Below, one piece after another: positions 10,079 to 32,171 of a stretch of DNA of 34,678 nt; positions within the stretch are counted from its first letter, which is position 1; every line of letters starts with the position of its first letter. Origin of the DNA: Coriobacteriaceae bacterium (GTDB lineage Bacteria; Actinomycetota; Coriobacteriia; Coriobacteriales; Atopobiaceae); assembly GCA_003862195.1 (NCBI GenBank), contig QOUO01000019.1, positions 1 to 34,678 on the forward strand, given 5' to 3'. The notes beneath the pieces are model-generated. The model made no database searches. It saw only the letters and a list, made by a program, of their open reading frames with translations, and was not told the DNA's origin. The position numbers were made by a program, and so were the translations under genes.

Positions 10079-10124
10079 CAAACCTGTACGGTGAAGCGTG
10101 TACGTTTGCGCCGCCACAGCACGC

Positions 10125-10179
10125 GGGCGAGAAGAACCGCCGCCTCGGCTGCAACAACGACGCCGCGTTCTTCTCGTCC
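10125..10179. repeat. Inverted repeat of GGGCGAGAAGAAC
   Basis: The left arm (10125-10137) and the reverse complement of the right arm (10167-10179) agree at 12 of 13 positions, including an uninterrupted 10-base CGAGAAGAAC. The spacer is 29 bases. The region from 9973 to 10243 between the two divergent promoters holds no convincing gene; open frames there lack a ribosome site and recognisable protein features. Confidence 0.55.
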
Positions 10180-10243
10180 GCCCCTGTTGCCGGCGACGTC
10201 GCTGCCGCGGGCTTTTGGATTTCCTTCGCAGGCGGGGGCGTGG

Positions 10244-31159: not shown

Positions 31160-31654
31160 ATGTACGAAGTCGGCCAGTATGTCGTCCATCCGGGCCAAGG
31201 CGTCTGCAAGGTTGAGGCAATCGAGGAGAAGCCGCGGGCAACGTACATGCTCATGCCCGTTGGCGGGCGCCATCCCATGCGCATCAGCTTCCCGGTTGCG
31301 AGCGAGGACAGGCTGCGCCCGATCATCGGCAGCGAGCAGGCCAAGGAGCTCATAGGCGAGTACCCGCAGCTTCCCGTGGAGAAGCTGGGCAACCACACCA
31401 ACGCCCTGGAGGAGCGCTTCAAGGACGAGCTGCGCAACGGGACCTGCAGGGACGCCGTGCGCATCGCCAAGACGTTCCACGCCCGCATCGCGGAGGTAAA
31501 GGCATCCAACAAGAAGCCGCCCGTCGTGTACGAGCGCATCTTCAAGCAGGCGAGCGAGCGCTCGCTGCAGGAGCTCGCCGTCGCCCTTGGCATGAGCGTG
31601 GACGACGTGCGCGAGCTCTTCCTCACCAAGGGCGAGGACGCGAGTCAGAACTAG
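31160..31654 (+). CDS. CarD family transcriptional regulator
   Basis: CarD/CdnL proteins bind the RNA polymerase beta subunit and stabilise open complexes, especially at rRNA promoters in actinobacteria. The 164-residue protein has the N-terminal polymerase-interaction domain (about 1-60: YEVGQYVVHPGQGVCKVEAIEE, YMLMPVGG) and a C-terminal helical DNA-binding domain (about 75-160). Both are of standard length. ATG 31160 was chosen because AGAGGAG (31145-31151) is 8 bases upstream; GTG 31151 overlaps that site. It is a stand-alone transcript. Confidence 0.92.
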   Translation: MYEVGQYVVHPGQGVCKVEAIEEKPRATYMLMPVGGRHPMRISFPVASEDRLRPIIGSEQAKELIGEYPQLPVEKLGNHTNALEERFKDELRNGTCRDAVRIAKTFHARIAEVKASNKKPPVVYERIFKQASERSLQELAVALGMSVDDVRELFLTKGEDASQN

Positions 31655-31667
31655 GTCCTTCTCGCCC

Positions 31668-31765
31668 GGCGACCGCCCTTCTTGCCAACGCATCCCCCTT
31701 GTGCGCCCGTTTGCCGCCCACGTTTCAATCTGGGCTCAAACGGGCGCGCTTGGCAGGCGGTCGCC
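31668..31765. repeat. Nested inverted repeat (about 98 bases) between carD and the ACT gene
   Basis: Four pairs of arms nest around one centre: GGCGACCGCC/GGCGGTCGCC (31668-31677, 31756-31765), TGCCAA/TTGGCA (31683-31688, 31750-31755), GCGCCCGTTTG/CAAACGGGCGC (31703-31713, 31737-31747) and GCCCA/TGGGC (31716-31720, 31731-31735). All pairs are perfect. It begins 13 bases after the carD stop and has no T-run on either strand. It could be a structured RNA, an unusual terminator or a protein-binding cruciform. Confidence 0.75.
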
Positions 31766-31776
31766 CGCCCCTCGGA

Positions 31777-31782
31777 TACAAT
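31777..31782 (+). promoter_or_regulatory. -10 box upstream of the ACT-domain gene
   Basis: TACAAT, 59 bases before the start codon. A TTGGCA lies 21 bases upstream, inside the nested inverted repeat, too far for a normal spacer. If the hairpin formed, it would affect access to this promoter. Confidence 0.4.
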
Positions 31783-31840
31783 GGGGGAGAAGAGCAACCC
31801 GCGCGCTCGCAGACGCGCGCATGACGCCAATGGGGGACCG

Positions 31841-32137
31841 ATGGCAGACACGAACGAGAATCCCAAGACCAGGGCGGTCATCACCGTGCTTGGCAGCGAC
31901 CGCTCGGGCATCGTGGCGGCGGTGGCGACGGCGCTGTCGCAGCACGACGCCAACATTCTGGACATCTCGCAGACGATCCTGCAGGGCACGTTCACGATGA
32001 CCATGCTCGTGGACCTGGCCCCGTCGGACGTCGAGTTCTCGCAGCTGCAGGAGCAGCTGGACAGCCTCTCCAAGGAGATAGGCGTCCAGATCACCATGCA
32101 GCGCGAGGAGGTCTTCAAGTTCATGTACCGCCTGTAG
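31841..32137 (+). CDS. ACT domain-containing protein
   Basis: The 98-residue protein consists of an ACT domain (RAVITVLGSDRSGIVAAVATALSQ) and a short tail, like the UPF0237 family. ACT domains bind amino acids or other small ligands; this group has no settled function. ATG 31841 with GGGGGA upstream fits the family's N-terminus; the frame continues upstream but without similarity. A terminator follows directly, so it is a single-gene transcript. Confidence 0.87.
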   Translation: MADTNENPKTRAVITVLGSDRSGIVAAVATALSQHDANILDISQTILQGTFTMTMLVDLAPSDVEFSQLQEQLDSLSKEIGVQITMQREEVFKFMYRL

Positions 32138-32145
32138 GCGGATTG

Positions 32146-32171
32146 CGCCCGCCCGTGAGGTGGGCGTTTTT
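32146..32171 (+). terminator. Terminator of the ACT-domain gene
   Basis: CGCCCGCC (32146-32153) pairs with GGTGGGCG (32159-32166) around a 5-base loop, followed by five T (32167-32171). It lies 8 bases after the stop. Confidence 0.9.

Follow-up and report, generated by a model that had tools for sequence, protein, structure and literature searches.

Activator sites of the OmpR/PhoB type are direct repeats with an 11-bp period, bound by a winged-helix response regulator. In mycobacteria, terminators without a poly-U tail are described (PMC12288462), but termination of this kind is in dispute: the reference list of the same paper includes a title claiming that the mycobacterial RNA polymerase requires a U-tract. 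In a survey of 13 genomes, one section heading says that poly A/U trails are dispensable (PMC8355165). The locus analysed here, in a window that is the whole 34,678-nt stretch of DNA under study, has a likeness to both kinds of system. The reading we prefer, with a probability of roughly 60%, is that two features overlap at this place: a species-specific hairpin at the end of carD and, in the top of that hairpin, a conserved DNA site of the promoter of an ACT-domain gene.

The gene order is carD, a gap, the ACT-domain gene and a citrate synthase gene. carD and the ACT gene are co-directional with the hairpin between them, and they lie close together in the 78 genomes from which gaps were collected. 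The positions of all features are given in Table 1. No sigma-70 promoter pair was reported at the TACAAT box of the ACT gene by a promoter scan of the window. The ACT reading frame is open back through the hairpin to a TTG at 31682; a conserved coding stretch through the hairpin was rejected, because the open frame of the ACT gene is 104 aa in both sister species. On the 3′ side of the ACT gene, a terminator scan found a terminator-like hairpin with a T-run (32145–32167), unlike the carD end.

Table 1 Features of the carD–ACT locus, with positions in the window
Feature	Position	Strand	Basis
carD, CarD/TRCF RNAP-interacting domain protein	31160–31654	+	Pfam PF02559, 40.8 bits; ORF call
Left outer arm, 10 bp (pairs with 31756–31765)	31668–31677	+	Fold
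Left middle arm, 6 bp (pairs with 31750–31755)	31683–31688	+	Fold
Left inner arm, 13 bp in the fold (pairs with 31737–31749)	31701–31713	+	Fold
Left arm of 5-bp top stem GCCCA/TGGGC, the sole stem that both other species of the genus retain	31716–31720	+	
GTTTCAATCTGGGCTCA, the conserved block in the hairpin top, 55 nt before the −10 box; proposed ACT activator site	31722–31738	+	
Block units GTTTC and GGCTC, 11 bp apart	31722–31726 and 31733–31737	+	
Right arm of 5-bp top stem	31731–31735	+	Fold
Right inner arm	31737–31749	+	Fold
Right middle arm	31750–31755	+	Fold
Right outer arm, over the expected place of a −35 box	31756–31765	+	Fold
−10 box TACAAT of the ACT gene, without a clear −35	31777–31782	+	Similar boxes in relatives
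ACT-domain gene	31841–32137	+	Pfam PF13740, 65.6 bits

The inverted repeat that the sequence-only reading placed at 31668–31765, between carD and the ACT gene, is real and pairs as described, with no mismatch inside its arms. Three of the arm lengths it gave (10, 6 and 5 bp) stand, and the third arm, put at 11 bp, extends to 13 bp in the fold. The repeat ends 11 nt before the −10 box and no T-run follows position 31765, both in agreement with that reading, and no ordinary terminator was reported here by the terminator scan. The helix is interrupted by two bulges, one of 5 nt and one of 12 nt, both on its left side, and by a 2+1 internal loop below the top stem. For the 98-nt repeat the minimum free energy is −60.0 kcal/mol, and none of 200 dinucleotide shuffles was equally stable; the z score of −8.1 is flattered by ends that were picked around the structure. 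The z score was −7.2 over 31655–31774 (120 nt) and −4.7 over a wider stretch of 136 nt, again with 0 of 200 shuffles equally stable. The hairpin starts 13 nt 3′ of the carD stop codon and lies wholly upstream of the ACT −10 box, and therefore its + strand form would occur only in RNA derived from carD.

We compared the arms among three species of the genus, two of them mutually close. The pairs of the host genome (G000) retained in the two other species, G001 and G002, were 3/10 and 4/10 in the outer arm, 4/6 and 2/6 in the middle arm, 5/13 and 5/13 in the inner arm, and 6/7 and 6/7 in the top stem. The outer, middle and inner arms thus break without compensation in both relatives, which is the drift that the sequence-only reading had named as counting against a structured RNA, and a conserved RNA is therefore unsupported. 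The great stability of the fold would suit a conserved RNA in the carD–ACT gap, whether a structured non-coding RNA or a riboregulator, but Rfam at gathering scores returned only a tRNA over the window and no match to the hairpin, and just 3 of the 36 motif-bearing sites have all 5 bp of the top stem, all three in the host genus. On the three species compared, we regard this explanation as mostly refuted and highly improbable. Conservation of the top stem outside the genus was also considered and set aside as weak: in the true register 89 of 165 cells were paired, compared with 79 when the register was slid by −1 and 51 to 76 for every other slide, and none of the 33 sites outside the genus had the whole stem.

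The two closest species fold like shuffles over this stretch (z −0.45 and −0.19). Across the family, z fell below −3 in 11 of 68 gaps, the G000 gap included, which has the lowest value of the 68; of the 78 gaps collected, these 68 were folded, a gap having to measure at least 60 nt once trimmed, and for long gaps the last 200 nt were used. Because the two closest species lack a significant fold here and only 11 of 68 gaps reach this level, a hairpin at the carD end is no family rule. This bears on an attenuator, which would tune readthrough from carD into ACT. Two co-directional genes, close together in the collected genomes and with a hairpin between them, are what such a device would need, but the ACT gene has its own −10 box downstream with similar boxes in relatives, and the hairpin is not conserved; we consider an attenuator unlikely. 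The absence of the long inverted repeat from both sister species might also be explained by a repeated or mobile palindrome (a REP-like element or MITE) that landed here. Such elements occur in several copies, but no second copy was found in the host genome: a query of 31700–31765 returned, besides the repeat's own minus-strand match, only matches of 14–17 nt, and a query of 31655–31840 returned itself as the one match (13 of 209 first-look candidates scored). A mobile origin is scarcely probable.

Hairpins past stop codons are common in this genome. Among 111 gene ends sampled from the window and 196 kb of the same genome, with two gaps counted on both strands, 20 had z below −3, with helices of up to 21 bp, and 12 of these 20 hairpins had three or fewer T in the next 8 nt (two tails were shortened by the end of a stretch). 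The carD–ACT gap is outside the 111, as our own gene calling swallowed it via the TTG start; its z of −7.2 would rank second among them, with different shuffle numbers (60 and 200). The carD hairpin is at the strong end of the range and of the same kind as the other gene-end hairpins in the genome. Since long hairpins past stop codons are frequent here and often lack a T-run, a hairpin that ends the carD transcript without a U-tract is the likeliest reading of the structure. It is an ordinary, species-specific structure of the carD end, probably for U-less termination or 3′-end protection, and the predicted role as 3′ end of the carD transcript is likely.

A canonical intrinsic terminator has a stem-loop followed directly by a T-run, which the carD hairpin lacks. 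A U-less terminator has no U-tail and a stable hairpin that lies no more than about 50 nt past the stop codon, as is the case here. The hairpin shares with the I-shaped (U-less) terminators of mycobacteria, as a section of PMC12288462 presents them (Unniraman 2001 cited there), a GC-rich hairpin at most 50 nt past the stop and no poly-U. It differs from them in being long, in its two one-sided bulges and in its overlap with the promoter region of the next gene, and termination at the carD hairpin is a prediction.

Other hairpins and repeats were seen in these genomes. In the host genome, an unbroken 21-bp helix lies past a gene in a convergent gap (L211, 4408–4527, contig C2), with no T-run and a z of −7.9. 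In G001, a hairpin of 15 perfect base pairs around a 3-nt loop (L208, 1518–1550), again lacking a T-run, is flanked by pilin-like and sortase-like genes, names read from the translations alone. The sequence CTTCTCGCC occurs at 31658–31666, directly past the carD stop; its density is 10 in 12.0 kb of 3′ gene ends (0.83 per kb) versus 104 in 461 kb for the whole sample counted on both strands (0.225 per kb). In some of the folded hairpins the 3′ arm facing GGCGAGAAG is this sequence or one close to it, and past the ACT terminator stands a shorter TTCTCGCC. An inverted repeat GCGGGCGAGAAGAAC/GTTCTTCTCGTCCGC with 14 of 15 pairs lies at 10123–10181, close to the beginning of a gene for a cation-transporting P-type ATPase.

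Judged by comparison across genomes, it is a short DNA site and not the hairpin that relatives have kept. G000, G001 and G002 have in common GCCCACGTTTC, four partly variable bases and TGGGCTCAA, together with the −10 box. GTTWC stands 54–56 nt upstream of the −10 box in 36 of 36 carD–ACT gaps from genera g1, g4, g9, g17 and g26, which were chosen after inspection. For a wider count we used 113 ACT upstreams; the ACT protein was found in 114 of 121 genomes, and G133, whose contig begins 21 nt before the match, and a second match in G126 were left out. Upstreams were scorable if they had TANAAT by rule, which excluded 25 of the 113 and left 88. GTTWC was found at 54–56 in 44 of these 88, from 9 of 23 genera, and variants of its first base (A, C or T for G) were found there in 14 of the other 44, including all 8 of g30. 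The remaining 30 of the 88 have no NTTWC at this distance. Stray GTTWC copies were seen at 13, 27, 42, 64, 65, 74, 78, 83 and 91 nt from the −10 box; the ACT upstreams of G068 and G085 carry a second GTTWC 10 nt farther upstream (64 and 65 nt from the −10 box, respectively). Both GTTWC and NNYTC (used below) were chosen after viewing the sequences. Because these very sequences suggested GTTWC, matches within its own columns count for nothing, and the weight lies with the fixed distance.

The block also stays with one of the two genes. In G028, G072 and G085, carD and ACT are about 1.5 kb apart, with other DNA in between, and the block is still found upstream of ACT, 54–55 nt from the −10 box. 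In the two of these examined, G028 and G085, GTTWC with a −10 box at 46–61 was absent from the first 300 nt after carD. By its position, the block is assigned to the ACT gene and not to the carD end. It has the marks expected of an activator site, in that it is conserved, keeps a constrained distance from a promoter and stays with its gene.

Few similar sites were found elsewhere. The strict pattern GTTWCNNNNTKNGCTCA gave 11 matches in 19 genomes, 9 of them at the ACT locus, with 6 for a reversed control, and it was missing from 9 of the 19. Over 230,678 bases of the host genome (both strands), just one of 27 TANAAT boxes, that of ACT, has GTTWC at 54–56. A regulon was tried as a candidate with GTTTCNNNNTGGGCTCA at no more than one mismatch, and was rejected; the pattern had 4, 2 and 4 matches in G000, G002 and G001 (1, 0 and 0 for the reversed control). 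Among these matches, a TANAAT at 54–56 was present only for the three ACT sites and for none of the other seven.

The first unit of the site tends to be followed by a second. Of 58 upstreams with NTTWC at 54–56, 26 carry NNYTC exactly 11 nt on, the next highest offset being found in 9, and 32 have no second unit as so defined. An unguided test of direct-repeat identity gave a tie, with 0.388 at 11 bp and 0.387 at 17 bp (mean 0.251, s.d. 0.054). In genus g29, G097 has TTTTC, CTTTC and GTTTC at 66, 55 and 44, and G087, whose −10 box lies 187 nt before the ACT match, has CTTTC and GTTTC at 55 and 44; in g23, G024 has TTTTC and GTTTC at 56 and 45. A site one turn closer to the promoter in g23 and g29 (GTTTC at 44–45) was rejected. 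Because the same three upstreams carry NTTWC at 55–56, this GTTTC is more plausibly a second unit, 11 bp farther along, which makes the argument from helical shifts weaker and the argument for a direct repeat stronger. Genus g7 has GTTAC at 33–34 in three genomes and GTTTC at 54 in two (in one g7 genome, G092, the −10 box used lies 331 nt before the ACT match), and g32 has GTCTC at 43–44 in two genomes versus 54–56 elsewhere. These few cases would fit shifts by whole helical turns.

Like sites of the OmpR/PhoB type, the block appears to have units in the same direction 11 bp apart, upstream of a −10 box without a clear −35; examples are GTTTC/GGCTC here and CTTTC/GTTTC in the two g29 genomes. 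It differs from them in that the second unit is so often missing (32/58) and in that the strict pattern is rare elsewhere in the 19 genomes. These features suggest a candidate direct-repeat site of an activator. They also bear on the proposal that the palindrome is an operator, with a dimeric protein binding the inverted repeat as a duplex or a cruciform. The perfect arms would suit such a protein, and the right outer arm covers the −35 position, but the arms are specific to the host species, 33 of the 36 motif-bearing sites lack a complete top stem, and the motif's units resemble an 11-bp direct repeat and not a palindrome; an operator of this kind is improbable. The sequence-only reading had offered three possibilities for the repeat: a structured non-coding RNA, the leader of a readthrough transcript, or a DNA palindrome to which a protein binds. 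The palindrome itself has not been kept in relatives, and what is supported is a DNA site, the 17-nt block at a constrained distance from the ACT promoter.

Under our preferred reading of two overlapping features, the 98-nt GC-rich hairpin would be the 3′ end of the carD transcript and would mark that end, or help to form it, without a U-tract. The conserved block, whose position and conservation were observed directly, would be a DNA site of the ACT promoter. A putative protein would bind at about 67 to 51 bp before the inferred start of transcription, probably in tandem along the 11-bp direct repeat, and would assist RNA polymerase where the −10 box is good but a clear −35 is missing; the protein, the direction of its effect and its signal are what we infer. 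A more specific scheme is distinctly unlikely: a dedicated ACT activator with about one target per genome would bind in tandem on 11-bp repeats at about −60, the carD hairpin would have been built around this site, and transcription or termination of carD would compete with activation of ACT.

The hairpin, then, is ordinary for its host genome, and the locus is a caution that a conspicuous palindrome can distract from a short conserved sequence that it encloses. A narrow search of open-licence literature listed no work on promoter control of the ACT-domain gene in this family among its matches. The conserved site offers a testable lead: it may be a control site of the ACT-domain gene that many genera of a single family have kept, and strict matches besides it are few in each genome.
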